Origin: Idiomarina sp.
Lineage (GTDB): Bacteria; Pseudomonadota; Gammaproteobacteria; Enterobacterales; Alteromonadaceae
Direction of reading: 5' to 3'
Assembly: GCA_020831965.1 (NCBI GenBank)
Contig: JAFIFP010000007.1
Span: forward strand, 1-64,000
Length of the DNA stretch: 64,000 nt
Both the position numbers and the translations under genes were made by a program. Shown in pieces: positions 2,005 through 20,595 of the stretch. The number at the start of each line of letters is the position of its first letter. Positions within the stretch are counted from its first letter, which is position 1. Below the pieces are notes generated by a model. It saw only the letters and a program-made list of their open reading frames with translations, was not told the origin of the DNA and ran no database searches.

Positions 2005-2586
2005 GTGAGATGCCAACCTGATGAAGAGGTTAGAAGAAGAGTGAACAAGTCGTGGAACATCGCAAGCACACGGATCAATCCCCTGGTTGTGTTCCTCGTA
2101 TGCGCCTCCCTCACCGTGCTGAATGGTGTGGGGCAGAGGTGGGGGTACGTTCTTCCCCTCGCGCTCTTGGCGGTCAACGCAGGCTTTTCCTTCGCGTTCT
2201 GGTCTTGGCGGCTCAAGAAAAGTCGAGGCAAGCGCTGGTTAACGGTTTCGCTCGTCCTAGGTAAGGGTTCGCGAGTTGTTGCGATTGTGAGCATCTTCGT
2301 CTTGGCAGCAGCCCTTGCCGCCGCCGTAGCGTCGCCGAGCTGGGTAGAGGTACATTTTGGGAAGCTCGATACCAAGTTCTGGATCCTATGGGTTTGGGCG
2401 GTTCTTGAGGTTGTGCACAGCCACGTGTATAGGCTGACTCTTGGGATGCGGAACACTCTGGAGGAGGTTGTTGCCAATCGACGGTGGAGCGAGGCCGGAG
2501 CACCGTTGGGTGGAGCGATCGGCGGGCAACTTCGTAAGCTCCGCCATCGGTGTGCCGGAAGCTTCTCTCGGAGAATCGGTGCCTAA
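2005..2586 (+). CDS. Integron cassette membrane protein, hypothetical
   Basis: Up to 193 residues from GTG 2005; GTG 2041 (protein starting NKSWNIAS) is an equally possible start. AAGGAG at 1975-1980 is strong but lies too far from both. At least four hydrophobic segments are visible (INPLVVFLVC, YVLPLALLAV, VVAIVSIFVLAAALAA, FWILWVWAVLEVV), so this is probably an inner-membrane protein. The TAA stop (2584-2586) lies inside the GCCTAAC core of the attC site, a hallmark of a cassette gene. Its sequence is visibly richer in G+C than the next cassette, as expected for cassettes from different donors. No family was recognised. Confidence 0.65.
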   Translation: MRCQPDEEVRRRVNKSWNIASTRINPLVVFLVCASLTVLNGVGQRWGYVLPLALLAVNAGFSFAFWSWRLKKSRGKRWLTVSLVLGKGSRVVAIVSIFVLAAALAAAVASPSWVEVHFGKLDTKFWILWVWAVLEVVHSHVYRLTLGMRNTLEEVVANRRWSEAGAPLGGAIGGQLRKLRHRCAGSFSRRIGA

Positions 2587-2651
2587 CAAGTCGCTGCACC
2601 GGACGGCAATTCCGCTGTGCTCCATTGCCGCCAGTGAGCTTGGTCGTTAAA
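2581..2651 (+). repeat. attC site of the first membrane-protein cassette
   Basis: GCCTAAC core followed by AAGTCGCTGCACCGGACG on the left, and GAGCTTGGTCGTTAAAA on the right, about 71 bases. This is the familiar TAACAAGTCGC-type attC. The right core ends in A instead of the consensus pyrimidine. Confidence 0.7.
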
Positions 2652-2668
2652 AGGTAAAAAGGCAAAAT

Positions 2669-3157
2669 ATGGTTACTCAACAAGTTACAGCTATAGCATT
2701 AAGAGTCCTGTCAATTTGGTTACTGATTCATCTTCTGCTGAGTTTGCCAAGCATCGCTTTAATGGTTCCAACTTTTGAGATGTTCCATGGGCAAGAGGCT
2801 CCTAAATGGATGTTTTTCGGCATTGCGGGTGCATTTTTTGTACTTGGCTTGCTCGCTGTATTTCTTATCTTCAAGTCGGCAACGTCTGCACTGACTAGAG
2901 CAAAAAGCGACTCTGCGCTCACACTGAGTGATGATTCTCAGAAGATGCTGTTCCAGTTGGCGGGTTTGTATTTTATTGTCAATGCTTTGGCTTATCTGCC
3001 ACGGTCGCTCGTGCCAATATCCAATGCACCTGATTTGTCATATGCTCATTTTATGACGTCGGCGGGATTGATATTGCAGTTGGTCATTGGGCTGTGGCTG
3101 GCGAGCCGTTCTGACTTTTGGGTAAAGCTGTTTCGCAAGTTGAGAGGTCGAGGATAA
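2669..3157 (+). CDS. Integron cassette membrane protein, hypothetical
   Basis: 162 residues with an AAAAAGG ribosome-binding site just upstream of the ATG. Four membrane segments are apparent, at about 8-30, 47-70, 92-112 and 128-146, with a basic C-terminal tail (KLFRKLRGRG). It lies between two attC-like sites, so it is the sole gene of a cassette. Its base composition is more A+T rich than the preceding cassette. No family was recognised; four-helix proteins of this size are common among integron cassettes and nearly always uncharacterised. Confidence 0.65.
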   Translation: MVTQQVTAIALRVLSIWLLIHLLLSLPSIALMVPTFEMFHGQEAPKWMFFGIAGAFFVLGLLAVFLIFKSATSALTRAKSDSALTLSDDSQKMLFQLAGLYFIVNALAYLPRSLVPISNAPDLSYAHFMTSAGLILQLVIGLWLASRSDFWVKLFRKLRGRG

Positions 3158-3161
3158 TGTC

Positions 3162-3233
3162 TTTTAACAAGTCGCATCAGTTCGTGCCAACGGCGCCGAA
3201 CTACTACAACGCACCAGTTATTTAGCGCATTAG
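3162..3233 (+). repeat. attC-like site of the second membrane-protein cassette
   Basis: TTTTAACAAGTCGCATCAG at the left resembles the preceding attC (TAACAAGTCGC). At the right, TTATTTAGCGCATTAGCT has the TTAG box and a degenerate core (ATTAGCT for GTTRRRY). The degenerate core may make it a weak recombination site. Confidence 0.5.
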
Positions 3234-3318: not shown

Positions 3319-3573
3319 ATGAGAATTGTGTCTTTTACAGAAGCAAGAAATAGTCTGAAAGCGGTACTAGATTCCGTGGTCAATGACGCGGATACAGCGG
3401 TGATTACTCGCCGTGATTCGGAAGATGCTGTTGTTATGTCACTAGACTATTACAACAGTTTGATGGAAACGGTGCACTTACTGCGTTCACCAGCAAATGC
3501 TGAGCATTTGAATCGCTCAATTGAGCAATTTAAAGCTGGTAAGTTCAACCACAGGGACTTAATTGATGAGTAG
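3319..3573 (+). CDS. Antitoxin, Phd/YefM family
   Basis: 84 residues from the ATG at 3319, preceded by GGAGG at 3309-3313. The N terminus (FTEARNSLKAVLDSV) and the segment VVMSLDYYNSLMETVHLL are diagnostic of YefM, whose N-terminal domain binds operator DNA and whose C-terminal helix (FNHRDLIDE) wraps and blocks the YoeB toxin. The stop overlaps the toxin start by 8 bases. Located in the integron array, where such pairs are thought to stabilise cassettes against loss. Confidence 0.9.
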   Translation: MRIVSFTEARNSLKAVLDSVVNDADTAVITRRDSEDAVVMSLDYYNSLMETVHLLRSPANAEHLNRSIEQFKAGKFNHRDLIDE

Positions 3574-3829
3574 TCGTTTATTGTCATGGACTGACGAATC
3601 TTGGAGTGATTACTTGCATTGGCAAACCCAGGACAATAAAACGCTTAAACGAATAAACAAACTCATAACCAACGTTAGACGCTCTCCGTTTGAGGGTATT
3701 GGAAAGCCTGAGCCGTTAAAGGAAAACTTAGCTGGTTTTTGGTCGCGACGTATAGATGATACGAATCGATTGGTTTACGCAGTTGATGAGAAGGCGATGA
3801 CGATCATTTCGTGTCGTTATCACTATTAG
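3566..3829 (+). CDS. Toxin, Txe/YoeB family mRNA interferase
   Basis: 87 residues from ATG 3566 (a TTG lies one codon upstream); the start overlaps the antitoxin end by 8 bases, implying coupled translation. Family features are clear: WTDESWSDYLHWQ at the N terminus, KTLKRINKLI, GKPEPLKENL, FWSRRIDDTNRLVY and the C-terminal SCRYHY that carries the catalytic His and terminal Tyr. YoeB toxins cleave mRNA at the ribosomal A site. All expected residues are present, so the toxin should be functional. Confidence 0.92.
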   Translation: MSSRLLSWTDESWSDYLHWQTQDNKTLKRINKLITNVRRSPFEGIGKPEPLKENLAGFWSRRIDDTNRLVYAVDEKAMTIISCRYHY

Positions 3830-3832
3830 ACT

Positions 3833-4595: not shown

Positions 4596-5525
4596 TTGAA
4601 GACAACTAGAGTTATTTTGCTATCGCTTGTCGTCATGTTGATAGGGTCGTGTCAACGGATGACAGCGGACAGTGATGTACAGAATGCGTTGGTTATTTCA
4701 GACGCAGAAACTTTTGCAGTGCTGTTTGAACGTTATCAAGGTGAGTTAAGTCCAGAGTTGTTAGAACAGGAATACCTTGATGTGGGTTCGGATGGTATTG
4801 CCATTTTCACGCCTTATCGCATCATTGACGCTGATAATCTGGCCAAGCAAATTGCCAACAACCGTAGCACCTATGAGAAAGCCATTTCCATGTGTCTACC
4901 AACGGTTCGCTCCTTATCGGACAACGCGGCATCTATTGTCCGCGACGTGGCTGATTTGATTGGTGAAAGCGAAACTGCGCCGGCTTATGTTGTCTTTGGC
5001 GGTAATAATTCCGGCGGCACGGCGAGTGCTGACGGACTGGTGATAGGCATCGAGGTGCTTTGTGACTTGGTAAGTGATCAAGCCGCATTTGCGCTTTTGT
5101 TTGAAGACTTTATCGCGCATGAAATTGTGCATGTGTATCAAAACCGTTTAATTCATCTCGATCGCCCTCCGACTTTGCTTGAAATGGCCCTGGTCGAGGG
5201 AGTTGCTGACTTTATTGCTGAGAAGATCTTAGGCCGGGTGAGTTCGGCCGCAGTGCAGCGCAGTGACTACGGATTGAAACATGAAGCTGAACTTTGGCAG
5301 GAATTTATCGCGGATATGCACGGCAGTGAGAGCGGTGACTGGCTGTATCGACAAGACCTAGGTGACGGCAGACCCGCGGATCTGGGCTATTGGATAGGCA
5401 AGCGCATTGCCGAATCCTATTACAAGAACGCCTCCAACAAGAAGGTAGCCGTGCGAGAGCTCGTTGGCTTCTCTGATGCCCAGGTAATACTGGACAACAG
5501 CCAATATGGCAAAGCCTTTGATTAA
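4596..5525 (+). CDS. Lipoprotein with gluzincin-like HExxH motif
   Basis: 309 residues from TTG 4596. A lipobox is visible (LVVMLIGSC, Cys19), so it is probably outer-membrane anchored. The core contains HEIVH at about residue 175 and, about 35 residues on, EGVADFIAE, the spacing expected for the third zinc ligand of a gluzincin metallopeptidase. It resembles DUF2268-type predicted zinc proteases. About 150 residues precede the motif without recognisable homology. Substrate unknown. No attC-like site follows it, so it is probably the first stable chromosomal gene after the cassette array. Confidence 0.6.
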   Translation: MKTTRVILLSLVVMLIGSCQRMTADSDVQNALVISDAETFAVLFERYQGELSPELLEQEYLDVGSDGIAIFTPYRIIDADNLAKQIANNRSTYEKAISMCLPTVRSLSDNAASIVRDVADLIGESETAPAYVVFGGNNSGGTASADGLVIGIEVLCDLVSDQAAFALLFEDFIAHEIVHVYQNRLIHLDRPPTLLEMALVEGVADFIAEKILGRVSSAAVQRSDYGLKHEAELWQEFIADMHGSESGDWLYRQDLGDGRPADLGYWIGKRIAESYYKNASNKKVAVRELVGFSDAQVILDNSQYGKAFD

Positions 5526-5577
5526 ACCTAGTTCCTGCTGATGTACGCTTGAATATGCGCGCTCGCAGAGGGCTTGC

Positions 5578-5629
5578 GAGCTGAAGTTAAGAGCTGAAGT
5601 TAAGAGCTGAAGTTACGAGCTGAAGTTGT
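5578..5629 (+). repeat. Four tandem copies of a 13-base repeat
   Basis: GAGCTGAAGTTAA occurs four times head to tail (5578, 5591, 5604, 5617), with the last copies differing in the final two bases. It lies between the lipoprotein stop and the AraC-type regulator and does not encode a continuous protein. Confidence 0.85.
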
Positions 5630-5662
5630 GAACAAGCCTAGAGCGATGGCAAGGTACTCCGC

Positions 5663-6814
5663 ATGCATATGAATTTTTCCGAAGACGTTGCTCTTCTTTC
5701 AGCCCACAGTGTAGTTTCAGGCCAGAGTGTAGTTTCCGGCAACAGCACAGTGGGTGAGTGGTTAATTGCTCCGCTGGTGTTGCTGCCAGTGAATGTTCTG
5801 CAGATCTCGGTCATCTTTTGTTGTGTACTGATGGCGGCAATGATTTGGCCACAACCACGGTTACGCGGGCTACTGCTGTTGCTGGGTTGGTATGGCGCGG
5901 TGATGCTGTTTAATTTCTTGGAAGAAACCGGTCTTAGCAGCCACATTCCTAGCATAACGCCTATTTTCAGTCTGCTGTTGGGACCTGTTTTCTACCTGCT
6001 GATTCGCCGGTTGGTTTGTGCTAGCGCACAATATCGCTGGCGTGATGTTATTCATGTAAGTCCTGCTTTAGTGCTGATACCTTTCGCCGAGCAAGTGCAG
6101 TGGGTGCTGGCATTTGGAACCTTGAGTCAGTTGGTTTATCTGGTAGTGGCAGCGCACTTATTGCGGCAGTATCAGCAGACGCTATGGGCTGAGCGTTCGG
6201 ACGCCGATCGGCTGGGTCTGCAGTGGTTGTTCTGGTTGCTCTTTGCGCTGGTGGGATTATTGTTAGTCGACTTGGTGCGGCTGAATCTACAGCCTTATTT
6301 GTCCTTCGAATTGCGTAATCAATGGTATTTTCTGCACTCTATGCTCGGGTTTGGTCTGATTTGTCTGTTGGTGCTCCGCGCCAGTCGTCAGCAGGAGTTC
6401 TTTGATGGGTTCTCTATTGCAACGGCTGCCACTGAGCACCGACAGCATAAAGAGGACGCGAAGGCGGTATTTGGACAACTCTCGGCGCTAATTGAACAGC
6501 AAAAACTATTTATGCAGCCGCGGTTGGCTGTGGCAGATCTGGCAGAGTTGACTGGGTTGAGCAGTAAAGATGTGTCCTGGGCTATCAATCAGGGCGCCGG
6601 TGTTAGTTTCTGCGATTATATTAACCAACTGCGATTGGCCGAGGTGCAACGCCAGCTTCAGGAGTCTCGCGGAAAATCCATTCTAGAAATAGCGCTCGAC
6701 GCTGGTTTCAATTCTAAGTCCACGTTTAATGCGCTGTTTAAAGCCAATACAGGGCTAACACCAAAGCAATATCAGCTTCAAAAGGTGCAAAATCCGGATT
6801 CTGGACGAACCTGA
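5663..6814 (+). CDS. AraC-family regulator with N-terminal membrane domain
   Basis: 383 residues. Residues about 25-240 contain six to seven hydrophobic helices, and the C terminus (about 325-375) is an AraC double helix-turn-helix (ILEIALDAGFNSKSTFNALF, then GLTPKQYQ). This architecture is typical of membrane-tethered AraC regulators in Alteromonadales. The signal is unknown. The N-terminal leader shows a small internal duplication (SVVSG twice). The amidohydrolase gene begins about 50 bases downstream on the same strand and may be its target or co-transcribed. Ribosome-binding site AAGG at 5650. Confidence 0.8.
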   Translation: MHMNFSEDVALLSAHSVVSGQSVVSGNSTVGEWLIAPLVLLPVNVLQISVIFCCVLMAAMIWPQPRLRGLLLLLGWYGAVMLFNFLEETGLSSHIPSITPIFSLLLGPVFYLLIRRLVCASAQYRWRDVIHVSPALVLIPFAEQVQWVLAFGTLSQLVYLVVAAHLLRQYQQTLWAERSDADRLGLQWLFWLLFALVGLLLVDLVRLNLQPYLSFELRNQWYFLHSMLGFGLICLLVLRASRQQEFFDGFSIATAATEHRQHKEDAKAVFGQLSALIEQQKLFMQPRLAVADLAELTGLSSKDVSWAINQGAGVSFCDYINQLRLAEVQRQLQESRGKSILEIALDAGFNSKSTFNALFKANTGLTPKQYQLQKVQNPDSGRT

Positions 6815-6866
6815 GCCGGAAAACTGGGAAGGTGACGGTATCTTTTAAGATGCCGGATTGCACCAA

Positions 6867-8336
6867 ATGACCCATAGAAAACGCACAAGAGCCAAAGCTG
6901 TCGCAATAACAGTAGCGATGTTGTTCCTTATCTTCTTTGCCTTGCTGTGGCATGTTGTGACTGATTTTCCGCAAGTACTAAAACCTAGGCCATCTCAAGA
7001 AACCCCCATTGGCGTGCTCATTGATAACGTGCGGTTGATTTCCATGGTACCTGGCGCGCCGGACGCAGAAGACGCACAAGCAGTGCTAGTGCTTGGCGAT
7101 CGTGTTGTTGAAGTGGGCGCTGCGGGGCAAATTGCAGCTCCGGAAGGTGTTCTCACTATTGATGCCCAAGGGAGGACCCTGATCCCAGGACTCATTGACG
7201 CTCACGTTCATCTCAATGACGAAGCTGAATTGGCGGGTTATCTCGCCCATGGCGTGACGGGGCTGCGGAATATGTCGGCTTATCCATTCCACCTGCCGCT
7301 TGCTAAGCGTATCAAAGAGGGCCGCATCCTCGGGCCAGATTTGATGACCACAGGTCAGCTGCTCAACAGTCGAGGTCCGAATGAAACCATTTTACAGCGA
7401 ACTGTTACCACAGATGCGGAGGCCCGAGCAGCAGTTCGCGACCAATATAAGGCGGGTTACCACACGCTGAAATTGTATTCCAATCTCAAGCGCGAGGCTT
7501 TCGATGCCATCATGGATGAGGCAGCCATGCTTGGTATGCAAGTAGTGGGGCATTCCCCTGAGGGAGAACGAATTGCTGGAATTCCTCATAGGAAGCCTTT
7601 TGAGATTCCATGGGAAGCGTCTCTCGGTAGAGGATTCACCACATTCGAGCATATCGAAACGCTAGTCTGGCACAGTCTTCGTGGCGAGATAGACGAGCAA
7701 GGCATGCAAGAGGTGGCGGCGAAGTTAGCCCTGTCGGGTGAGGCGGTAACCACCACGCTCATTGCGCATAAGGTCTTGGTGCTTATTGCTGAGACACAGG
7801 GTGCATATTTGCAGGGGCCCGGTTTCGACACCATTAATCCGTTAGTTCGTCTGGCGCAGCGCAGTGATGCCAAGTATTGGAGTGAGGTGGATCCAGCGGT
7901 GTACGAGGGGCCACGCGCTGAATTCTATTTGAAAGCAACGCGGATCTTGCATGAAGCCGGTGTATCTCTTATTGCAGCAACAGACGCCGGCCTCTTCGCG
8001 ATTGTTCCCGGAGCCTCCATGGCGCGAGAGTTGGAGCTGTTGGTGGAGGCAGGGCTTTCTCCCCACGACGCATTGGCTTCGGCTACTCGAATAAGCGCAC
8101 AGGTTTTGGGATTTGAGCAAACTGGAGTGATCGCGCCGGGGTATCGAGCGAATCTAGTGTTATTACCCGAAGATCCGCTACTTGATATTGGCATCGTGGA
8201 GTTCCCAACCGCAGTCATGATCGGCGGCTACTGGATGGATGAGCTAAAACTTGAAGAACTAAGAAAAGCGGCGCGCGATAGTTCACTTATCCGCTCAGCT
8301 TGGCGAGCACTACATATGCTCATGCGCAGCTATTAG
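6867..8336 (+). CDS. Membrane-anchored amidohydrolase, imidazolonepropionase-like
   Basis: 489 residues from ATG 6867 (TTG 6858 also possible). A hydrophobic anchor (VAITVAMLFLIFFALLWHVV) precedes a cyclic amidohydrolase domain. All metal-ligand motifs are present: HxH in DAHVHLND, the lysine region HTLKLYSN, GHSPEG, FEHIETL and the Asp in ATDAG. The C-terminal APGYRANLVLLPEDPL strand is typical of this subfamily, which includes prolidase-like and imidazolonepropionase-like enzymes acting on cyclic or C-terminal amides. The anchor suggests the catalytic domain faces the periplasm. Substrate unknown. Follows the AraC regulator gene. Confidence 0.8.
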   Translation: MTHRKRTRAKAVAITVAMLFLIFFALLWHVVTDFPQVLKPRPSQETPIGVLIDNVRLISMVPGAPDAEDAQAVLVLGDRVVEVGAAGQIAAPEGVLTIDAQGRTLIPGLIDAHVHLNDEAELAGYLAHGVTGLRNMSAYPFHLPLAKRIKEGRILGPDLMTTGQLLNSRGPNETILQRTVTTDAEARAAVRDQYKAGYHTLKLYSNLKREAFDAIMDEAAMLGMQVVGHSPEGERIAGIPHRKPFEIPWEASLGRGFTTFEHIETLVWHSLRGEIDEQGMQEVAAKLALSGEAVTTTLIAHKVLVLIAETQGAYLQGPGFDTINPLVRLAQRSDAKYWSEVDPAVYEGPRAEFYLKATRILHEAGVSLIAATDAGLFAIVPGASMARELELLVEAGLSPHDALASATRISAQVLGFEQTGVIAPGYRANLVLLPEDPLLDIGIVEFPTAVMIGGYWMDELKLEELRKAARDSSLIRSAWRALHMLMRSY

Positions 8337-8518
8337 CAGTGGAATCCGTCAAGATTACATTTGCCAGTCATGTATACAATCAGCTAGCATCGAATTCGAT
8401 AGGGAACCAAACTCGATTGTCGATCACTGTGAGATTTCTGGCTGAACAAAGCATTACGCCAGACGTTGCACAATAATTGCGAGCCATTATTGGCATTGCG
8501 CACTCTAAGGAACCTTCT

Positions 8519-8974
8519 ATGAAAAAGGGATTTATTCTGGCATGTGTCGCCTCATTCGTATTACTTCACGAAGGCTTGAATCATTTTTTTGTACTTCTAT
8601 ACGTCGGCAATTTTGAAGCCGCGGAAGCGGCGCAAAGGGCCTTTGGGCATTCTGGCTTTAGCGATGCTCTTTTACCTAGCTCGTTTCGCTTAATACCTTT
8701 TATTCCACTGATTCTGTGTGCCGCTTATACAGACCTCTTTGCGTCTGTGAAAGGACGGATCGCCTTGTATGTAAGTTTGGCAGTGACCATTTTTATTATA
8801 TTCGATGGGTACTGGGCGATGACGCGCCCGTTCTATACAGATGAACACATTTCCTCAACCACAGCTCTAGGTTATGTTTTTGTTCCAATCGCAGCTTTGA
8901 TGTACTCGGCGATAGCTGGCGTTGCTTCTTATGCTTTGGTTAAGGCTTACGAAGCTCGCGTGAAACCTGCGTAG
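8519..8974 (+). CDS. Hypothetical four-helix membrane protein
   Basis: 151 residues from ATG 8519, chosen because AAGGAA lies 7-8 bases upstream; an in-frame TTG at 8477 lacks one. Four hydrophobic helices: 4-22, 53-74, 81-100 and 118-142. The segment between helices 1 and 2 is amphipathic and rich in Ala and Glu. No family recognised. It stands alone between the amidohydrolase and the peptidase module. Confidence 0.6.
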   Translation: MKKGFILACVASFVLLHEGLNHFFVLLYVGNFEAAEAAQRAFGHSGFSDALLPSSFRLIPFIPLILCAAYTDLFASVKGRIALYVSLAVTIFIIFDGYWAMTRPFYTDEHISSTTALGYVFVPIAALMYSAIAGVASYALVKAYEARVKPA

Positions 8975-9165
8975 CTCATGCTTATAGATGAGCGTTTCTC
9001 GGTGAGCGATTTAAGTAAGGCACCGAAACTCACTGGAAATTGGTGAGGACAAATGGCTTTATGGTGACTACACTAACTCAAAGTTTAGGTAGTGACCTCG
9101 TTAGTTAAAAGCGACTTAATAATAAAAATAAATCCGCTAATTCAAAGCAAAAGGAGGGGCAACGC

Positions 9166-9207
9166 TTGTTGCGCAGAGATGATGTAGCGCTCAGTCAAGT
9201 TTCCTAA
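9166..9207 (+). CDS. Possible 13-residue leader peptide upstream of the peptidase
   Basis: AAGGAGGGG (9151-9159), the strongest ribosome-binding site in this region, sits 8 bases before TTG 9166. That codon opens a frame of 13 residues (MLRRDDVALSQVS) ending four bases before the peptidase ATG at 9212. The peptidase ATG itself has no ribosome-binding site of similar quality. Either translation is coupled through a leader peptide or the site is fortuitous. Confidence 0.3.
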   Translation: MLRRDDVALSQVS

Positions 9208-9211
9208 TCAC

Positions 9212-11041
9212 ATGTTTATTTGCAGAGTACCATCGACTGTTCAAGGCTCTCGATCAAGCGAGCGGAAGGCAGCGAATCGAATCATTGCAAGCTTCATACT
9301 CCTTTTCTCAGCGACACACGCTGTAGCAGAAGAGCGTCCGTTTCCTTCCGGAATGGGGGCTGTTCTCGATGATCAAGTTTATGCTGAACAACCCGCAGGA
9401 CCGCCGCTTACCCGCGGAAACTACGCAAACTTACCGTCTCGCGTGAGCTTGGAAGGCGCTACACCTACTCCAGGAGATCAAGGACGACAGGGGAGTTGTG
9501 TTGGATGGGCGGTCGCTTACGCTGCACGAACGATTGCCGAGGCGAATACGCGTTCACTGTCTCGGCAAGCGGTTGATAACTATGTTTTCTCTCCCTCCTT
9601 TGTGTACAACCAAATTCTCAGTGACGATTGCGACAGCGGCTCGCAAATTCATACCGCGTTGAACCTGATTCAGCGCCAAGGTGTGCCATTGATGCGCGAC
9701 TTTCCCTACGATGCATCGACCTGCAGTCAGCCCATTCTGGCGTCGCACCGTCGATTAGCGAGCGAGTATCGCATTAGTAGTTGGCGAGCACTATCGAGAC
9801 CTGGAGCTCGCTCCATTCATGTTCCCGTGCGCCGAGCATTAGCCGCTGAACATCCGGTCATTATTGGCATGCTTGTCTCAAATAGTTTTTCCAATACCCG
9901 CGCCATTCGAGAGAACAATGGTGTTTGGATTCCAACGTCTGAAGATTATGACACCCGTTCGAACAATCCAAATTCGTTATATGGCCATGCCATGACGGTG
10001 GTGGGATATGACGACAATCGGTTTGGTGGGGCGTTTCGAATTATCAATAGTTGGGGAACATCGTGGGGCGACAATGGCTATGTTTGGGTTCGCTATGAGG
10101 ATTTCTCGCGATTTGTCATACAAGCATTTGAAGTTATTCCTGAAAAACCCACACCACCAGCTGAACCTAATCTCGGGGGAGCCATGCGTTTCTTCCATAT
10201 CAATGATGACGAGATGCAGGCTGCACAACGCTCAGGCGGAATCTGGCGTTTGAATCAGCCGTACCCATCAGGTACGCGTTTCCGTGTTGAGCTGACCAGT
10301 GATTTCGAGGGGTATGTGTATGTTATTGGTGGTGACTTAGAAGGGAACTATGTGGAGTTGTTTCCTCGTCGCCAACAAGTGAGCTCGCGCTTGGTTCGCA
10401 ATGAAACCATGGTTATCCCAGGACCGACTGAAGATTTCTATACTCGGATGGACGACAACACGGGCACGGATTTCTATGTTGTGCTGTTTAGCCGCAGCCA
10501 AATTGATGTCAGGGCGCTGCTGCAACGAGTGAATCAAGCGGACGGTTCACCCAGGCAGCGTTTACAAGCCGGGCTAGGGCGAAGAATGGAAGGCGCTGAA
10601 GAGATTGAGTACTTGAGCCAACGTATCGGTGCTCGTGCACATGTACCCGAAGATGGCGTGCTGCCATTGATCGTGGAAATAGAGCATGTGGAACCGTCTG
10701 AGGATCAGCAAGACACGCGGGCACCGCGAATTGTCCTTAATGAACCCTCGTTTGATCCACACGAGGAACTGTCGTCAGGACAGCGAGTTTATCGTGTAAG
10801 CGAGCGAAGCTTTACTATTCGTGGAATCGCCCAAGATGAGAGCCGTATTCGTCAGGTTCAAGTCGAAGGCTCTATTGCTAGTCGTTTCTCTTCTCTTGGA
10901 CCGTTTGAAGCGCAAGTTGTGATACCTGAAGACGCTACCGAAGCCGAATTTGTGGTACGTGCGGTGGATGCCGCCGGTAATGAAGTGCGAGAACGAATCA
11001 CCGTAATTTTAGATGAAGGGCAGGCGCTTTCTGTCCGTTAA
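9212..11041 (+). CDS. Exported papain-like (C1) peptidase with DUF4384 and Ig-like domains
   Basis: 609 residues. A signal peptide is likely (ANRIIASFILLFSATHAVA, cleavage near residue 39). The papain-like domain spans about 80-310: catalytic Cys96 in QGRQGSCVGWA, His259 in YGHAMTVVGYDD and Asn279 in RIINSWGTSWG. Residues about 345-450 resemble DUF4384 (FRVELTSDFEGYVYVI ... VELFPR), a domain often paired with caspases and other signalling modules. Residues about 505-600 form an Ig/Big-like beta domain (SERSFTIRGIAQDESRI). No pro-region inhibitor is obvious. The TAA stop overlaps the ATG at 11041, so it is closely coupled to the downstream caspase-domain gene and the two very probably act together outside the cytoplasm. 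Confidence 0.85.
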   Translation: MFICRVPSTVQGSRSSERKAANRIIASFILLFSATHAVAEERPFPSGMGAVLDDQVYAEQPAGPPLTRGNYANLPSRVSLEGATPTPGDQGRQGSCVGWAVAYAARTIAEANTRSLSRQAVDNYVFSPSFVYNQILSDDCDSGSQIHTALNLIQRQGVPLMRDFPYDASTCSQPILASHRRLASEYRISSWRALSRPGARSIHVPVRRALAAEHPVIIGMLVSNSFSNTRAIRENNGVWIPTSEDYDTRSNNPNSLYGHAMTVVGYDDNRFGGAFRIINSWGTSWGDNGYVWVRYEDFSRFVIQAFEVIPEKPTPPAEPNLGGAMRFFHINDDEMQAAQRSGGIWRLNQPYPSGTRFRVELTSDFEGYVYVIGGDLEGNYVELFPRRQQVSSRLVRNETMVIPGPTEDFYTRMDDNTGTDFYVVLFSRSQIDVRALLQRVNQADGSPRQRLQAGLGRRMEGAEEIEYLSQRIGARAHVPEDGVLPLIVEIEHVEPSEDQQDTRAPRIVLNEPSFDPHEELSSGQRVYRVSERSFTIRGIAQDESRIRQVQVEGSIASRFSSLGPFEAQVVIPEDATEAEFVVRAVDAAGNEVRERITVILDEGQALSVR

Positions 11042-11058
11042 TGTTTGGGGGAACTGAT

Positions 11059-14000
11059 ATGTCGCGCCTTAACCTTTTGGGAATGTTTAGCTGGATTGCG
11101 GGGCTGTTACTACTGTTATCACCGCCAGTGTTGGCGTCCTATGAGAATGCGTCTGCGCAGGAGCTTTATCAACGTAGCCTCGATACGCCAAGTGCCATAG
11201 AACGGGTGATTATCCGTCGATATCTTGTTGAAAATCATTCAGGCTCTGTCGAAGCTGTTTTTGCTGCGGGATGGCTTGCGAATCATGAAGACCGTGAGGA
11301 TGAGGCGGTACGTCGGTATCGCGAGGTTATAGAGCGAGCGCCGGCTCTGAGTGACGCGTCTTTTAACCTAGGAGCTATTCTGCGGTCGCGTGGGCAACTG
11401 GACGACGCATTGAGAGTGTTCAAAGGTGGATTAGATGCAAATCCTAATGATTACATGCTCGTGCGAGACATCTATTTCCATTTGGCCGAAGATATGGATG
11501 CCATGTCTGAAGCGCGGCAATTTTTACAGCAACAAACGCGGCGACTCGGCAGTGACCATTGGGTCATTCAACTTATTCTGGGGTTGCATGCCCAGTTTCA
11601 GGACAGAGACTTAAGCGGTGCGGCGCGCCACTATCGTGATTCCGCCCGCGCCGGGGCACCTACTGAAGCCATGCGCCGATATGTGAATCTTTCGATTGAT
11701 CAGCTCAATGCTGATCCGGGAACGATCCTTCGTACCGGAATTGATCATGCAATAGAGCATGAGGATACTCAGTTATTACGTGACCTCGGTGACCGGCTAG
11801 CGCGTATGAACTACCGTCAAGATGCACTGCAGATGTACGAGAACTCCATGCGCATCTATCCAAATGCAGAAGCATTGAAGAATGCGACGGATAATCTGTT
11901 TAATTGGCTGCCAACTGAGACGCTGAGCTTCGTTGATGAGTGGGCGCCGCGTATGCCTGACAATTGGCAAGCACAAGCAACCCTGGCGCAAACCTATGAT
12001 AGTCATCGTTACGATTTTGAACGCGCGAGACAGCTTCGCGAGCGGTCAATTGCACTGGCACCCCACAGTCAGTCCCGCGCGCAGGCGGTTACACAGGCCG
12101 TAACCGCTTGGCATGCTACTTATGCGCTAGATATAGCGAAACGAGTGCTTGAGGAACACGCGGAGTCACTGCCTCGGGCAGCGGATCGGAATCTAATGAA
12201 TGCCTACTTGGCTGAGAATAGAACGAAGGCCGGTGATTATGTTGGCGCTCAGCAGGTATTGTCGCGATTGCCCGATGGCAATGTCGTAGGGGTCAATGAC
12301 AATTGGTTAATGGGCTTACGCGAGAGTCTTGCACGCGCGACAGGGCTGCAATCTGAGCGGGAGCAATTTTTTCAAGAGAATCCATTTTTACAGCGTTGGG
12401 ATGAACGCTTTGGTGAAAGCTTAGTCTTGTCGGTGGAGTTTGAATTGAACTCAGCGCGTATTCACCCGCGCGCTCATCGTATGCTTGCAGAGGCTGCCGC
12501 CGCATTGAAAGCAGCAGGCGGCGAGGACTATGTTTTTTTGGTGGAAGGACATACAGATATCACCGGCACGGATGCAATTAATTTGCCCCTGTCAGAACAG
12601 CGGGCGCGCTCGGTGGCTGACTTTCTCAGCAGAGAGCATGATGTGTCCCGTGAGAGATTGCAGAGCATCGGACACGGCTCGAATCATCCAATTGCGACCA
12701 ATGAAACGGAGCAAGGGAGACAAAGTAATCGCCGTGTAGAAATTCGACCATACGGTATTGTGAGTCGACCCGAAGTGGTTGTTTCAGGACATTTGGATGC
12801 AGATAACATTGCAGTATCACCAGATGGTCGTTTTATTGCTTCTGGACAGGGGCCAATTCAGCTTTGGGATACACGCAGGAACGTTAAGGTGCGTGAGTTA
12901 TTCCGTGGCGGCAGTATCCGTGATTTTTCGCCCGACAGTCGTTACCTAGCGGTTGCCAGCTCTTACACGGAAGTGAGTGGGAATGAAACGAATGCGCTCT
13001 ATATCATGGACACGAAAACCGGGCATGTTGTTGCGCAGATCCTCAGTCCAAGTCGCATAACAGACCTGTCTTGGAGTCCTTTCGGTGACGGTTTGGTGTT
13101 CGGTAACATGCTCGGCAATGTCATTTTGTTTGATATGAAATCACGAACAGTTCGCGCGGCGAATCGAGCCGGTTCCATTGAATCATCGACGTTGGTTGAG
13201 TGGTTGGCTGATGGCGAACGAATTGTCAGTACTCAAGCAGTTTCCGGCACGACGGCCAACTCGCGACTTCGTGTCTGGCGTGCGGAGGATTTACAAGAAA
13301 TAGAGAGTAGGCGCGGACGGGCATGGCCACATGCTATGCGTGCCAGCCGAGATGGCCGCTGGCTGGTCACAGTGGATAATGATCGCCAGATTGTAATTCA
13401 TGATACCTCAGATTGGTCGACCCGAACGCTACGTGCTCCTATGATTCCCAAACGCATGCAATCTCATCCAGACCGGCCATGGATGGTAATGAATGACTTT
13501 ACTCAGGGGGATGATGGCGTTGCCGTGCTCGACATCGAAGCTGGACAGATCGTGGCGACAGCCAGCACCAATAGTTTGGAAACTGGGGTTGGCTTCACGC
13601 CAGATGGCTCACAGGTTATTGTCGGCTATGAAGATCGCATTCGCTGGTTGGATAGCTCTTCATTAAGAGAAGTGAATACATTTGATGGACAGGCCGCAGG
13701 ATCCCTTGGGCTCCTGATCGATCGCGTGAACGATTATGTGATCAACACCGATGATGCAGGAACAACGGTTTTTAACCTTACTACGGGACGTCGGGTTCAC
13801 CGGATGGTGACCGAATCAGAGTTTGTCTGGAGCGCTCTCAACAGTGACGCTTCGCGTCTAGCGACAGTCGATACCAACGGCAATCTCGTTGTGTTTGATA
13901 GTAATGACTTCTCTGAGCAACGCCGTTTTCGTTTTGACTTCGATGTGACTCAAAACCTTCATGTGGAAGGTGACTATATTGTTGCGGTTGGAACCCCTCG

Positions 14001-15948
14001 TAACCAGAATCCAAGTGCACGTTCAGTAGGCCGCGTTGTGGTATTGAACAAGAGCGATTTTTCGGTAGTTTCGCGCATAGAAATGCCGCTGGTGACCGAG
14101 CTGGTGCGCTATGGCCGCGTTATTGACCCGCAAATCCGCTGGATTGCTGTTGATAGTGCGCGTAATCGAGTCGCTTTCAATACGACCTGGCAGGACGGTT
14201 TTGGTAGAGCTCGGCAGAACTCAAGAACCGTTCAAGTGTTCCGGTTAGATAACGGGCGCAGCCAAGGCGATTTCCAAATGAATCATCAAGTGAATGGTTT
14301 TCGCTTTGATCGCGAGGGACTCTTGGCAATTGGTAGACGTGGCGCGGGAGAGGCATTCTTTGATGTTTCGACGGGCGGACAAGTGCGCACGGAACCTGCA
14401 CGCACGCGCTTCGAATTGGACTTGGGTACCGGTGAAACCTTGTATTGGGCTCGAGACTACATGGCGCTCAATGATAAAACAGTACGCTTCCCTGATTCAC
14501 TGCGCCGAGTGGCGACTCATCCGGCGCGGAATCTATTAATCGCGCAGACCGCAGGGAACGAGTTATTGTTTTTTGATATCAAAACACTTGAGCGTCATTT
14601 AACGATAGTGGTGAAGCGCAATGACCAATGGATTGCATACACACCGGAAGGCCACTTTGCCAGCTCTGAGCATGGCACCGAGGGGGTCTTCTGGTCACAA
14701 GGCGATCATTTTCTGCCCTTCGATGCCTTGCGCAATCAAATGGAACGCGGACGCCTGATTCAAGAGCGGTTACGCGCGCTCATGGAGGACGATTCGCCTA
14801 CGGAGGTGGTGCATGTTGATGAGCCCTCGATTGATCCCGCGTTGTTTGAAACACCTTATCAGGTGAATCTACTGTCTGAAACGGGCATAGATACCAATGA
14901 ACCGACTTATCGAGTGCGATTGGAAGTCACCAAAGCGAGCGTCGACCTTCCTGATCCGGAAGTACGCTACCGACTGAACGGTCGCCCCGTGGCGCGAACG
15001 CGAGGCTTTGAAGAAGAAGCGGTGTGGGATAGCGAAGAGATTGTGACCATCGAGCGTCAACTTGATCTGCAAGAGGGGCATAATCGGATTGAAGTGGCGT
15101 TGCATTTCCGTAACGCGGACGTTGAACGTCAAGTTATCGAGGTCAACCGCAGAGTGCAGCAGCGCCCAGAAGAAATCAGCAGTCAGACGCAACTCTGGTT
15201 TTTTGCCGTTGGTGTATCAGATTATGAACTAAGCACACAGAATCTAGAGTTTGCTCACCGCGATGCATTGGCTCTTGAGGAAGTCATGAAGGAGCAAGAG
15301 GGTGTGCTATTTAACAAGGTGAATACGCGCGTTCTTGTTAACGACGAAGCGACTGAACGGAATGTTCGTGTTGAGCTTAATGACTTTTTACGTCAAGCAT
15401 CCGCAGAAGATTTGATTATTATTTTCCTGGCTGGACATGGTGTTCAGGACAATGAGCAAAATCTCTACTTCATGACCCATGATGGCGATATGCAGCGGCC
15501 TTTCACTGGAATGGCGATAGACCGCTTCCGCGATTTCTTGCAATCACGTCCCTTGAACCAGAAAGCTTTGTTCATGATGGACATTTGTCATGCTGGCAGC
15601 ACGGGACCGCGACGCCGTGGTCGCGTCACATCTGAAGATGCGGTCCAACAGCTTTCGGAAGGTACTGGTACGATTGTATTTGCTTCATCAACAGGTGCGC
15701 AGTCTTCACTAGAAGATGCAAGTTTTGGTGGTGGCCATGGAGCGTTTACTGCTGCATTGCTCGAGGCCTTCCGAGGTCACGCTGATCGTCAGTCGGGTAA
15801 CAATGATGGATTTAATAGCGTTCACGAAGTGATTTCTTACACATCGCGTCGTGTTCCGCAAATTACCCAAGGAGCACAACACCCGACGGTACCTATGTTG
15901 CAAAACGTCCGGGATTTCCCGCTTACGATTGCGGCACCAGAAGAGTAA
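11059..15948 (+). CDS. Exported TPR-OmpA-WD40-caspase multidomain protein
   Basis: 1629 residues from ATG 11059, chosen for GGGGGAA 5 bases upstream; ATG 11041, overlapping the previous stop as TAATG, is the alternative. Signal peptide: residues 1-26 (IAGLLLLLSPPVLA). Then TPR-like repeats (about 35-430), an OmpA-like peptidoglycan-binding domain (about 455-565, VEGHTDITGTDAINLPLSEQ), a WD40-like propeller region (about 570-1240), an Ig-like linker (about 1268-1370) and a C14 caspase domain (about 1378-1625). The caspase dyad is present: His1460 in FLAGHGVQD and Cys1510 in MMDICHAGS. OmpA and signal peptide place it in the periplasm, attached to the cell wall, which is unusual for a caspase homologue. 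It follows the papain-like peptidase gene in one transcription unit; a strong hairpin terminator follows at 15962. Confidence 0.88.
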   Translation: MSRLNLLGMFSWIAGLLLLLSPPVLASYENASAQELYQRSLDTPSAIERVIIRRYLVENHSGSVEAVFAAGWLANHEDREDEAVRRYREVIERAPALSDASFNLGAILRSRGQLDDALRVFKGGLDANPNDYMLVRDIYFHLAEDMDAMSEARQFLQQQTRRLGSDHWVIQLILGLHAQFQDRDLSGAARHYRDSARAGAPTEAMRRYVNLSIDQLNADPGTILRTGIDHAIEHEDTQLLRDLGDRLARMNYRQDALQMYENSMRIYPNAEALKNATDNLFNWLPTETLSFVDEWAPRMPDNWQAQATLAQTYDSHRYDFERARQLRERSIALAPHSQSRAQAVTQAVTAWHATYALDIAKRVLEEHAESLPRAADRNLMNAYLAENRTKAGDYVGAQQVLSRLPDGNVVGVNDNWLMGLRESLARATGLQSEREQFFQENPFLQRWDERFGESLVLSVEFELNSARIHPRAHRMLAEAAAALKAAGGEDYVFLVEGHTDITGTDAINLPLSEQRARSVADFLSREHDVSRERLQSIGHGSNHPIATNETEQGRQSNRRVEIRPYGIVSRPEVVVSGHLDADNIAVSPDGRFIASGQGPIQLWDTRRNVKVRELFRGGSIRDFSPDSRYLAVASSYTEVSGNETNALYIMDTKTGHVVAQILSPSRITDLSWSPFGDGLVFGNMLGNVILFDMKSRTVRAANRAGSIESSTLVEWLADGERIVSTQAVSGTTANSRLRVWRAEDLQEIESRRGRAWPHAMRASRDGRWLVTVDNDRQIVIHDTSDWSTRTLRAPMIPKRMQSHPDRPWMVMNDFTQGDDGVAVLDIEAGQIVATASTNSLETGVGFTPDGSQVIVGYEDRIRWLDSSSLREVNTFDGQAAGSLGLLIDRVNDYVINTDDAGTTVFNLTTGRRVHRMVTESEFVWSALNSDASRLATVDTNGNLVVFDSNDFSEQRRFRFDFDVTQNLHVEGDYIVAVGTPRNQNPSARSVGRVVVLNKSDFSVVSRIEMPLVTELVRYGRVIDPQIRWIAVDSARNRVAFNTTWQDGFGRARQNSRTVQVFRLDNGRSQGDFQMNHQVNGFRFDREGLLAIGRRGAGEAFFDVSTGGQVRTEPARTRFELDLGTGETLYWARDYMALNDKTVRFPDSLRRVATHPARNLLIAQTAGNELLFFDIKTLERHLTIVVKRNDQWIAYTPEGHFASSEHGTEGVFWSQGDHFLPFDALRNQMERGRLIQERLRALMEDDSPTEVVHVDEPSIDPALFETPYQVNLLSETGIDTNEPTYRVRLEVTKASVDLPDPEVRYRLNGRPVARTRGFEEEAVWDSEEIVTIERQLDLQEGHNRIEVALHFRNADVERQVIEVNRRVQQRPEEISSQTQLWFFAVGVSDYELSTQNLEFAHRDALALEEVMKEQEGVLFNKVNTRVLVNDEATERNVRVELNDFLRQASAEDLIIIFLAGHGVQDNEQNLYFMTHDGDMQRPFTGMAIDRFRDFLQSRPLNQKALFMMDICHAGSTGPRRRGRVTSEDAVQQLSEGTGTIVFASSTGAQSSLEDASFGGGHGAFTAALLEAFRGHADRQSGNNDGFNSVHEVISYTSRRVPQITQGAQHPTVPMLQNVRDFPLTIAAPEE

Positions 15949-17298: not shown

Positions 17299-17417
17299 CG
17301 AGAGCCGGTAATCCTACTCATAGAGAACTACAAAAGCTCCCTTAGTCTTTGACATCATTGTCTGTCATTGCAGCAATTCGTTAACTTTTTGTCTTTTTGA
17401 ATAGGGAAATTCCCGAG

Positions 17418-19358
17418 ATGAGTCGTACGGGCCAAGAACCAAACCGTCGGTCTAAAACATGGATACTTTTTGCGTTCGTCATAGCGGTGGCTGTGCTGAT
17501 TGGCTTTCGTTATGTGAATCAACCCAAACAAAGCGCGAGCGCTCCTCTCGCGCAGACTGAACATGGCCTGCAAAGTACGTCAAACATCTCTCCTTCAAGT
17601 CCACGCGGTTTTGGCGAAGTCTCCGAACTCGATACGTCGGATTTTTCTCAATGCGAAGCCTATCTACGAAATCTCACTTTAGAAAGGGCTCGATGGGGTC
17701 GTGAAAACTATCGGGACTGGGCGCGTTATCTAGAACAGGGATATTCACTGGACGATGTGACGTTGATAGTCGAACGTTTCGCTAATCCCAACTTTGCTGC
17801 CAGCTTTCGTGCCGAACAATTACGCAAAGGTAGTAAAGTCGCGTTGCAGAACGAAGCCTTAATGGAAGAGCTTCAGCGACAGGTGCCAGAGGCTGTCGAG
17901 ATGGGGATTTCCGTTCAGCGAGGCTACCCGAACCCTTGGCTAGAGTCGTTCGAGACTATGTCAGAAAGTGAGAGAAGGCAGGTGCTAGCTGATCATCCGG
18001 TAAGCGTGGATGACGCTGCTTATTTTGTTCATGCAGGACTGTCCGACGAGTATCTTCTCATGATGCTGGATCGTATCTCAGATGTGGATGCTACGGTCAA
18101 CTTTAATAGACTCGAAGCTACTTCGTTACTTGATTATGCGATATTCGCTTCTCGGCCTGCTGTGGTTGAGATGCTACTGCGGCGAGGAGCGTCACCGACG
18201 TCCGATGCGCACTTGGGCTCTTCGATGGAGTGGGCGTTGAGTCGCCTAGGCTATGCGAATGATGATATTCGAGCGGCTGCTGTGGAGGTGGTGAGACTGC
18301 TGAAGCGGCATGGTGCCGCAGCGCGCTTTGAGTTACAGCGGGAGAATCGCGTCGAGGGTCACTTTCCTCGCCATTCTTATCGGTTTCGCGAAGAGCAAAT
18401 TTTGTCGCTCTGGCAGGATTATCAGTTGAATCTTATGCAAATTGAATCGCGTGAACTGCCCGTATTAGATGAGCATCATCCACTGATTGAAACGTTAAAT
18501 GCTAAGCGAGATGCCTATTTATCTGAAAACAAAAGCGGTGAAAATTATCGAGAGCTGCGTACACTCTGCCAGCACACGTTGAGAGAAGTTAACCGGCAGT
18601 GGCAGCCTGAGTCATCGGCTGATGTGTTAAACCGAGTGATTGCGTTGTACGAAGGATCACCGGAGCGCATCATCAGTGAATTGGCTGATATTGATCCGCT
18701 ATTGGTAGATATATATCGAACACGTTTAGTCGGCATGGCTCGGCCGGGAAGCCGCGAGAGTGAGTTGCAAGATGTCATGGAACTTCTGAATAAAGGTGAG
18801 ACGGCACAAGCGATTCGATACCTCGAAGCGCAGTCATATAGCGATGATCAGAAGCGAAGATTTGTTATCCAGATGCTCAGCTTCAATGCTTATCTATATC
18901 CAGAACTCAGTCGCAGTGCTTTATGGGTCGATGATCTTCAGTTCTTTGATTTGCTGATGGTCGGGTTGAGAGAAGACTTGATTCGGTCACTTGACCAAGC
19001 GGGAGCAAATTTACGCGGAGTAGATCGTCGAGAGAAAACCTTGTTGTATTATGCTACGCAGCGCTTAAATGTTAGTTTGGTTAGGTTTCTCAAAGAGCAA
19101 GGCTATCCATCTTCTTTCGATAGCCAAGGAGAAGATCCGCTTCATGTTGCTTTGGGACTTCGTTCGCAGGGCCAGTCGCTCGAAAACCCAGAAAAGCTTG
19201 TGGATATTTTGATGACATACCGACCAACTATCGATACTCACCATCAAAGCCGAATGGCTCTAATTCAACTCAGGTACCCTTGGCTTTATGAATCATTGAC
19301 AAACCGCCACCCTGAACTTGTGATTGATAGCGATACCCCGTTGCCACCGGTACGATAG
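17418..19358 (+). CDS. Ankyrin-repeat-like protein with N-terminal anchor
   Basis: 646 residues from ATG 17418 (AGGGA upstream; TTG 17397 possible). One hydrophobic segment near residues 12-32 (WILFAFVIAVAVLIGF) acts as signal anchor. Ankyrin-type helices are visible at about 225-300 (TSLLDYAIFASRPAVVEMLL, then RRGAS) and about 515-620 (KTLLYYATQRLNVSLVRFL, then DPLHVALGL). The middle is helical and unassigned. Such proteins serve as binding scaffolds; the anchor suggests they do so in the periplasm. Same orientation as the preceding LURP-one gene, about 120 bases downstream. Confidence 0.65.
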   Translation: MSRTGQEPNRRSKTWILFAFVIAVAVLIGFRYVNQPKQSASAPLAQTEHGLQSTSNISPSSPRGFGEVSELDTSDFSQCEAYLRNLTLERARWGRENYRDWARYLEQGYSLDDVTLIVERFANPNFAASFRAEQLRKGSKVALQNEALMEELQRQVPEAVEMGISVQRGYPNPWLESFETMSESERRQVLADHPVSVDDAAYFVHAGLSDEYLLMMLDRISDVDATVNFNRLEATSLLDYAIFASRPAVVEMLLRRGASPTSDAHLGSSMEWALSRLGYANDDIRAAAVEVVRLLKRHGAAARFELQRENRVEGHFPRHSYRFREEQILSLWQDYQLNLMQIESRELPVLDEHHPLIETLNAKRDAYLSENKSGENYRELRTLCQHTLREVNRQWQPESSADVLNRVIALYEGSPERIISELADIDPLLVDIYRTRLVGMARPGSRESELQDVMELLNKGETAQAIRYLEAQSYSDDQKRRFVIQMLSFNAYLYPELSRSALWVDDLQFFDLLMVGLREDLIRSLDQAGANLRGVDRREKTLLYYATQRLNVSLVRFLKEQGYPSSFDSQGEDPLHVALGLRSQGQSLENPEKLVDILMTYRPTIDTHHQSRMALIQLRYPWLYESLTNRHPELVIDSDTPLPPVR

Positions 19359-19971: not shown

Positions 19972-20283
19972 CTAGACCGAGCGAGTGAGCTGAGGAGGAA
20001 ACTCAAGCTTTTGCACTTTGTCTAGACTGAGTTGTTTTTCGGCATGCCATAGATCGTAGGTATCCTGCATTGCTAGCCAGCTTTCAGGGCTTCTTCCCAG
20101 TGCTTTAGACAAACGCAATGCCATTTCTGGACTAATACCACTTTGAGCTTTCAAGACTCTGTTCAATGTGGAGGGAGAAACATCTAATTTGGTAGCCAAA
20201 TATCTGCAACTCAGACTAAATGGTTCCATATAGGTCACTCTAATAAACTCCCCTGGATGAACTGGGTTATACATCACAGACAT
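19972..20283 (-). CDS. higA: HigA-type antitoxin, XRE family
   Basis: 103 residues: NPVHPGEFIRVTYMEP at the N terminus and a Cro/C1 helix-turn-helix (YLATKLDVSPSTLNRVLKAQ), then ALRLSKALGRSPESWLAMQ, the VapI/HigA signature. The ATG overlaps the toxin stop by one base (TGATG). Toxin-first order is characteristic of higBA. HigA neutralises HigB and represses the operon. Confidence 0.93.
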   Translation of the reverse strand: MSVMYNPVHPGEFIRVTYMEPFSLSCRYLATKLDVSPSTLNRVLKAQSGISPEMALRLSKALGRSPESWLAMQDTYDLWHAEKQLSLDKVQKLEFPPQLTRSV

Positions 20284-20561
20284 CAGTGATAATCCTCATA
20301 ATTAAGCAGATACACATGACCATCACGAAACTCAAAGGTTAGCCGCCAGTTCCCGTTGACCACTATCGACCAATGACCCTTTCGCTCTCCTCTTAACGGA
20401 TGGAGTTTATATCCGGGAAGGTCAAGATCTGAGACTTTCATTGCGGTGTGCAGAGCAGTGAGTTGCATTCGTAATCTTTTAGCATGATTAACCTGAATGC
20501 CTCGAGTACTTCCTGTCTCGAAGTACAGCTGCAGTCCCTTGTGTTTGAAAGCCTTGATCAC
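20283..20561 (-). CDS. higB: HigB-type toxin, RelE/ParE superfamily
   Basis: 92 residues from GTG 20561. Typical HigB: IKAFKHKGLQLYFETGSTRG, HAKRLRMQLTALHTA, then LHPLRGERKGHWSIVVNGNW and RLTFEFRDGHVYLLNYEDYH. HigB is a ribosome-dependent mRNA endonuclease. No ribosome-binding site precedes the GTG, and the -10 box of the promoter ends about 7 bases before it, so the transcript may be leaderless. Confidence 0.93.
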   Translation of the reverse strand: MIKAFKHKGLQLYFETGSTRGIQVNHAKRLRMQLTALHTAMKVSDLDLPGYKLHPLRGERKGHWSIVVNGNWRLTFEFRDGHVYLLNYEDYH

Positions 20562-20567
20562 TGATGT

Positions 20568-20595
20568 AGTGTAGCGCGTTGCGCAACAGTGTCAA
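20568..20595 (-). promoter_or_regulatory. higBA promoter with palindromic operator in the spacer
   Basis: Minus strand: TTGACA (20595-20590), 16-base spacer, TACACT (20573-20568). The spacer contains the perfect palindrome GTTGCGCAAC (20578-20587), a likely HigA binding site. The predicted start of transcription falls at or next to the higB GTG. Confidence 0.7.

Follow-up and report, generated by a model that had tools for sequence, protein, structure and literature searches.

A conserved pair of putatively periplasmic proteases, a papain-family peptidase and an OmpA-caspase protein, in Idiomarina and four other genomes

Discussions of bacterial caspases mostly treat them as cytosolic or membrane-bound effectors. 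The cyanobacterial members are described in these terms (PMC7475262), and an earlier note on the DNA studied here, made from the sequence alone, had likewise set the locus against prokaryotic caspases that are mostly cytosolic. This contrast was too strong because exported or wall-linked caspases have already been reported singly (PMC3355149, PMC3501461). A survey of 671 prokaryotic metacaspase sequences counted 11 with a putative peptidoglycan-binding domain; the same source puts metacaspases with peptidoglycan-binding or amidase domains on record and reports metacaspase operons with OmpA (14) and with other protease domains (23 of 217) (PMC3501461). DUF4384 is also already known in association with caspase folds (PMC6426788, PMC7475262).

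We analyzed a pair of co-directional genes in a 64,000-nucleotide stretch of an Idiomarina sp. genome (contig JAFIFP010000007.1, positions 1–64,000; hereafter, the window). Gene 1 (9212–11041, plus strand, as are all features of the pair) encodes an exported-looking C1-family (papain-like) peptidase of 609 residues (ORF list; Peptidase_C1, 1e-11), and gene 2 (11041–15948) encodes a TPR-OmpA-WD40-Ig-caspase protein (ORF list; Pfam), also exported-looking, of 1635 residues from the ATG at 11041 or 1629 residues from an in-frame ATG at 11059. An ORF check bore out the coordinates and the one-base TAATG overlap described in the earlier note (TAA at 11039–11041, ATG at 11041). Judged by eye, the ATG at 11059 looks the likelier start; it is preceded by GGGGGA, and the gap to gene 1 then counts 17 bases and not 18 as previously given. 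For gene 1, position 9212 is the only usual start codon in the vicinity, since an in-frame stop lies just upstream. The segment AAAGGAGGGG (within 9150–9207) precedes a TTG-started frame of 13 codons that ends 4 bases 5' of the gene 1 ATG, by eye a possible coupled leader peptide. A promoter and terminator scan returned counts near those of shuffled sequence (4 vs. 7.0 and 8 vs. 6.9, respectively). The GC content of the pair (0.51) and its GC3 (0.45 and 0.48) are ordinary for the window, and composition therefore does not point to recent transfer.

The papain domain of gene 1 (9425–10147; Peptidase_C1 over residues 89–296, above the Pfam cut-off) holds the Gln-Cys-His-Asn active site expected of the C1 papain family. 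The earlier note had correctly named Cys96 (9497–9499), His259 (9986–9988), and Asn279 (10046–10048); together with Gln90 (9479–9481), these residues are invariant in all six papains aligned. The domain is followed by DUF4384 (10262–10498, residues 351–429; PF14326, 3.1e-9, above cut-off), which exceeds the cut-off in three of the five paired papains introduced below and falls under it in two, and by a C-terminal Ig-like domain (10796–11014, residues 529–601) that was assigned from a weak match (Glucodextran_B, E = 0.0044, below cut-off) and from the alignment, in which the Rubritalea copy lacks it. The earlier note was silent on the DUF4384 and Ig-like parts, as it was on an integron integrase ∼7.5 kb upstream. 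In the cathepsin-type C1 subgroup, I29 serves as an inhibitory propeptide. No I29 propeptide was found in gene 1 (Pfam, E 0.1), and ∼35 residues separate the presumed signal cleavage site from the start of the mature domain; there is therefore no obvious zymogen, and the sequence accordingly lends nothing to a scheme in which the caspase activates the papain.

Gene 2 opens with a TPR or helical-repeat region (11149–12333; weak Pfam TPR matches, the best at about cut-off), followed by an OmpA-like peptidoglycan-binding domain (12439–12732, residues 467–564; PF00691, 3.4e-17, above cut-off), a WD40-like beta-propeller region (12766–14508; Pfam matches at about residues 580–980, mostly below cut-offs, and a low-confidence AlphaFold2 model), an Ig-like region assigned by eye (14839–15168; no Pfam match of its own among the best 25 of 30 listed), and a C-terminal caspase domain (15208–15891; Peptidase_C14 over residues 1390–1617, 4.7e-18, above cut-off). 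The repeat assignments are marginal, with WD40 (27.1 vs. a cut-off of 27) and TPR_17 (24.7 vs. 24.4) barely above and several beta-propeller models below. Across the seven caspase homologues, the OmpA and C14 domains always exceed the Pfam cut-off, propeller matches are mostly below theirs, and two copies (Rubritalea and G1541) show no TPR match at our thresholds; TPR and propeller regions were assigned by alignment in copies without a Pfam match above threshold. In NCBIfam, the OmpA part falls with YiaD/Pal-type lipoproteins, below whole-protein cut-offs.

A C14 domain with the His-Cys dyad of caspases and orthocaspases is present in all seven homologues. The catalytic residues of gene 2 (His at 15436–15438, Cys at 15586–15588), correctly given in the earlier note as His1460 and Cys1510 (1466 and 1516 from the upstream ATG), are invariant in the seven caspases aligned. 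Loss of catalytic residues in homologues, named there as an outcome that would speak against the proposal, was thus seen in neither family (7/7 caspases and 6/6 papains keep them). Also present in 7/7 caspases are two acidic residues, D1408 and D1514 (from ATG 11041), which we matched by motif position, not structure, to the S1 pair of TbMCA2, Asp95 and Asp211 (PMC6426788); by this likeness, the caspase would cut after Arg or Lys. An Arg-rich loop 3' of the catalytic Cys (GPRRRGR, 15604–15624), whose last Arg is kept in six of seven homologues, is a plausible candidate for a processing site, cut by the protein itself or in trans. In the host genome, listed as 97.8% complete, no Peptidase_C14 match other than gene 2 appears at E 0.001.

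Structure prediction, suggested in the earlier note for both proteins, gave low-confidence AlphaFold2 models. The gene 1 model (three sequences) had a mean pLDDT of 50.2. Most of its papain part was below 50 (residues 29–200 and several later stretches), and for this reason, we draw nothing from the model or from its Foldseek list, which contained mostly Ig-like chains, with the papain-like Lpg2622 (6a0q) at rank 39. The model of gene 2 residues 571–1635 (four sequences, mean pLDDT of 61.6) aligned with WD40 propellers, the best row being 7xfr_C (Z 15.9, rmsd 4.2, 196 residues); the 50 VIA-align rows listed were mostly propellers, nearly all of them within model residues 1–577. The caspase assignment rests on Pfam.

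Both proteins start with a signal-peptide-like segment. That of gene 1 (9212–9328) has a hydrophobic core and then AVA before EE, and that of gene 2 (11059–11136) shows by eye no lipobox cysteine at the presumed cleavage site. Export was read from a simple home-made hydropathy profile (19-mers, mean hydropathy threshold of 1.6), in which neither window protein has a further 19-mer above 1.6 after its hydrophobic start. The same was true of all 11 complete N-termini at the paired loci and G370 (six caspases and five papains), and the four other paired papains have segments similar to that of gene 1. By hydropathy, then, the N-termini look like the signal peptides that the earlier note assigned to both proteins, and the cytoplasmic caspase that it regarded as contrary evidence was not encountered. 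One might still suppose that these segments are not real signal peptides and that the caspase is cytosolic or sits in the inner membrane, given that the N-region of gene 1 is long and charged and that a hydropathy profile is not a dedicated predictor. We consider this very improbable: hydrophobic segments occur at 11 of 11 complete N-termini even though their letters are only ∼20% alike, and an OmpA-like domain that retains its peptidoglycan-contact residues is most easily understood in an extracytoplasmic protein.

The Asp, Asn, Leu, and Arg of this domain (500, 508, 511, and 515 from ATG 11059), which we take to be peptidoglycan contacts with the Asp and Arg touching diaminopimelate, are found with the NxxLSxxRA motif in 7/7 homologues. 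The solved OmpA domains to which the window domain is similar include 3td3 (E 6.6e-12). The domain and its wall-contact residues are thus in line with the earlier suggestion that it would fix the caspase to peptidoglycan; the binding itself is predicted.

The pair, for which the earlier note had advised a search of other genomes, recurs in four genomes besides the host, and this recurrence argues that it is not a chance arrangement. We found the caspase architecture at seven loci, of which five are paired, one is undeterminable at a contig end, and one is unpaired. The papain gene lies directly upstream of the caspase gene, in the same order, in the window, in Halomonas, in a Rubritalea bin, and in two genomes denoted G1536 and G1541, with intervening gaps of −1 (or 17), 28, 9, 20, and 47 bases, respectively. 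A search of named genomes with gene 2 led to three loci: one in Halomonas sp. 328 (L011; papain 6074–7897, caspase 7926–12791), one in the Rubritalea MAG (L013; papain 5292–6740, caspase 6750–11786), and one in a Rhodobacteraceae MAG (G523, L012) whose contig begins inside the caspase gene; no papain match was found in that genome, although the contig with the caspase is truncated. When 295 genomes from the same Rhodobacteraceae family were searched, the full-length pairs turned up in G1536 and G1541. Together with the residues described above, a conserved pair of predicted periplasmic proteases is well supported by sequence.

Several relatives depart from this arrangement. In the same family search, G1299 matched at the caspase end only, with a WD40-caspase without OmpA; at this locus (L070, 7290–13054), the WD40-caspase is divergent beside two trypsin-like genes, one above and one just below the Pfam cut-off. 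A gene 3' of the Rhodobacteraceae caspase (L012, 4986–6581) was considered as a ClpP-fold protease and rejected, with no supporting Pfam, NCBIfam, or PDB match. In a plasmid search, no record covered 80% of either protein. A Persicobacter plasmid carries a papain with a DUF4384 match below cut-off and an N-terminus of another kind (a hydrophobic stretch at about residues 47–57), and there is no annotated caspase within 9 kb of it. The Pannonibacter plasmid examined, one of two listed, encodes a TPR-OmpA-WD40 protein without a caspase (L014, 6902–9538), and the gene overlaps a CFI-box-CTERM gene (9525–10679), the same platform with another partner. On a Pseudoroseomonas plasmid (L016, 1773–8440), a WD40-caspase comes after a glycine-zipper protein, with an M48 peptidase and a type VI secretion cluster nearby.

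Co-occurrence of the two families, another check raised in the earlier note, could be followed in the 295-genome family sample, where the full-length papain-DUF4384 protein was present in two genomes, the caspase architecture in three, and both in two (hypergeometric P = 7e-5, with classes set after the rows were seen). One of the three caspase genomes is the MAG that led to that family, in three further genomes the papain search matched nothing beyond the peptidase part, and both 295-genome searches were of equal size and shared handles. Across the five paired loci, the pairwise identities of the papain correlate with those of the caspase protein (r = 0.97, 10 non-independent comparisons), a pattern that shared descent of the hosts could also produce.

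Constraint is uneven along the proteins. Mean pairwise identity in gene 2 at the five paired loci was 60.3% for the caspase, 50.1% for the OmpA domain, 43.0% for the Ig-like region, 42.7% for the linker, 30.1% for the propeller, and 26.5% for the TPR region; in gene 1, it was 45.9% for the papain, 42.6% for the Ig-like tail (without Rubritalea), and 38.6% for the DUF4384 region. Divergence is concentrated in the repeats and spares the catalytic and wall-binding parts, a pattern that would fit repeats whose recognition target varies from host to host.

The pair is rare in the samples of genomes that we searched, most counts including the genome that started the search. None of the 16 other congeners matched the caspase part; their matches sit around the OmpA part, except for one TPR-part match in G926. 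Among 295 genomes of the order, gene 1 matched nine at 1e-3, its own included, and the other eight matched in the papain part alone (six) or the DUF4384 part alone (two). The caspase alignment found 2/229 genomes in the class sample (the host and G370) and 1/188 and 1/201 in the class and family of other hosts, in each case the host itself; the papain alignment at 1e-20 found 1/398 in the phylum sample, again the own genome. The long caspase alignment searches scored two candidates per genome, and absences in the samples of 229, 188, and 201 and in the 295 genomes of the Rhodobacteraceae family are soft. Horizontal spread or repeated loss would best account for such sporadic presence in distant lineages.

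We propose that the two genes form a sporadically distributed periplasmic protease module with a wall-fixed sensor-caspase and a co-exported papain, a reading to which we give an even chance of being right. The OmpA-like domain would fix the caspase protein to the cell wall, and its fast-changing TPR and propeller parts would recognize a ligand or partner. Recognition would release the caspase, possibly through cleavage within the Arg loop that comes after the catalytic Cys. The papain, exported alongside, would act on the same target or assist in processing the caspase; processing of the caspase by the papain is possible. The earlier interpretation, a periplasmic sensor-protease with a partner peptidase, perhaps in a proteolytic cascade that responds to envelope damage, holds in part, as regards the export-like N-termini, the OmpA contact residues, the intact active sites, and the occurrence of the pair across genomes. 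None of the neighboring genes names an envelope-damage or defense role. Because the trait is accessory and patchy, the pair most likely serves an envelope stress response or defense rather than housekeeping.

The main alternative is an ordinary periplasmic clean-up or maturation set, in which the two enzymes cleave misfolded or secreted proteins, each on its own, and no signaling switch is involved. Two exported-looking proteases with intact sites, one of them a papain without a recognizable propeptide, would fit such a set, and the Halomonas pair is preceded, as in a general protease cluster, by a protein that carries an HEYGH motif and a signal-like N-terminus (M78-like; E = 0.003, under the cut-off). 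A protein of 1600 residues with repeats and wall-binding parts is, however, much for a clean-up enzyme, and the caspase occurs rarely and patchily in the genome samples examined, so we hold this account to be somewhat unlikely.

The genomic setting of the module bears on a second alternative. An integron integrase (689–1657, minus strand; TIGR02249, 400 bits vs. a cut-off of 265) lies outside the pair, and integrases above cut-off are found in 6/17 genomes of the genus, the host included. Cassettes follow at ∼1957–3201, in which the stretches 1957–2255 and 2654–3201 have counterparts of 99% and 91% identity, respectively, in two congeners; these congener-shared blocks end and begin around an attC-like recombination site (2581–2652, plus strand), a folded inverted repeat. 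A simple heuristic scan of the first 36 kb returned this one attC site and none near the protease pair, two other attC patterns gave nothing or noise, and an attC covariance model was dropped after its eight candidate sites aligned poorly. The pair sits between the integrase with its first cassettes and a block at 20002–20595. This block, which overlaps what is by eye a small HTH antitoxin-like gene (19972–20283, minus strand), shares ∼80% identity with stretches of the integron regions of two congeners, and the array may therefore have extended beyond the pair in the past. Other neighbors noted by eye are a small antitoxin/toxin-like gene pair near the integron (3320–3830, YefM/YoeB-like) and, downstream from the pair, an ankyrin-repeat protein with a hydrophobic N-terminal segment (17397–19358).

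An integron integrase ∼7.5 kb away, a patchy distribution, and 16 congeners without the caspase are what one might expect of a periplasmic defense system. In such a system, the sensor anchored in the wall would encounter proteins that phages use for lysis or entry, or an effector from a rival, and the proteases would degrade them or bring about cell death. Caspases are known in immune loci (PMC12799240, PMC7159879), and the ankyrin protein has a weak PADLOC match to a candidate defense model (PDC-M72A, 8e-4). PADLOC matches to gene 2 are nevertheless domain-level only (caspase, 1.5e-9; ZorB via the OmpA part), and gene 1 had none; no nuclease, NTPase, or TIR match appeared among the neighboring genes scanned by Pfam, which make up part of the genes in the window. 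The viral contig collection contained no relative, and the five phage records listed, out of 13, match around the OmpA part only. We regard a dedicated defense system as fairly improbable.

The unpaired locus adds a further possibility. In G370, the same caspase architecture stands without a papain, and no papain-family match was found in that genome; the papain is therefore not strictly needed. A CHAT C-terminal fragment (caspase-like, 4.6e-25) ends 58 bases 5' of the caspase gene, on a contig that begins 616 bases upstream and looks disturbed, in a genome listed with 7% contamination. One could imagine an extracytoplasmic proteolytic relay in which the caspase, built into the wall, senses a change there, such as loose peptidoglycan, lysis proteins, or an incoming effector. 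Once released through self-cleavage or papain cleavage at its Arg loop, the caspase would set off a programmed envelope response, and different lineages could use different partner proteases (papain or, perhaps in G370, CHAT). This elaboration of the module is speculative and quite improbable. If a wall-anchored caspase with a fixed partner protease is confirmed, caspase-type control would extend to the periplasm, a compartment exposed to phage lysis, antibiotics, and rivals, and the five loci with their aligned active sites provide a compact test set for whether bacterial caspases join relays.

The pair shares parts with several known systems and differs from each. Metacaspases and orthocaspases have the C14 His-Cys dyad and the WD40 or TPR partners of gene 2, but the portions of the survey used here describe neither an in-chain OmpA domain nor a papain partner, both of which are present in the window (PMC3501461). 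The secreted Bradyrhizobium caspase A5ECX2 resembles gene 2 in its signal peptide, caspase, and putative wall-binding domain, whereas this last domain is YARHG, not OmpA, and the protein is a single case for which the portion of the report used here describes no partner protease (PMC3355149). As in the pair, alphaproteobacterial pseudo-orthocaspases join DUF4384 and a second protease domain to a caspase fold. They do so, however, in one chain with an N-terminal trypsin-like domain, a C-terminal DUF4384, and a substituted dyad, while the window has two chains, a papain, and an intact dyad (PMC6426788). The EACC1-caspase system likewise consists of two genes, with the caspase in the 3' gene and membrane proximity, but its 5' gene encodes a single-helix EACC1 protein and its caspase is N-terminal (PMC7159879); in the window, the 5' gene encodes a papain-DUF4384 protein with only an N-terminal signal, the caspase is C-terminal, and caspase_w_EACC1, although the best NCBIfam caspase match among those listed, scores 91.1 bits vs. 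a cut-off of 140. In canu caspase-nuclease loci, the caspase is also paired with a partner gene, although there the partner is a nuclease and here a protease (PMC12799240); no MBL match of the kind that the neighboring MBL-type gated nuclease of canu would give was found in the neighbors scanned. We found no description of an OmpA-caspase fusion or of this pair in the open-access literature searched. Wall-linked caspases and protease neighbors being already known, what appears to be new in this locus is the OmpA-caspase fusion with its conserved papain partner.
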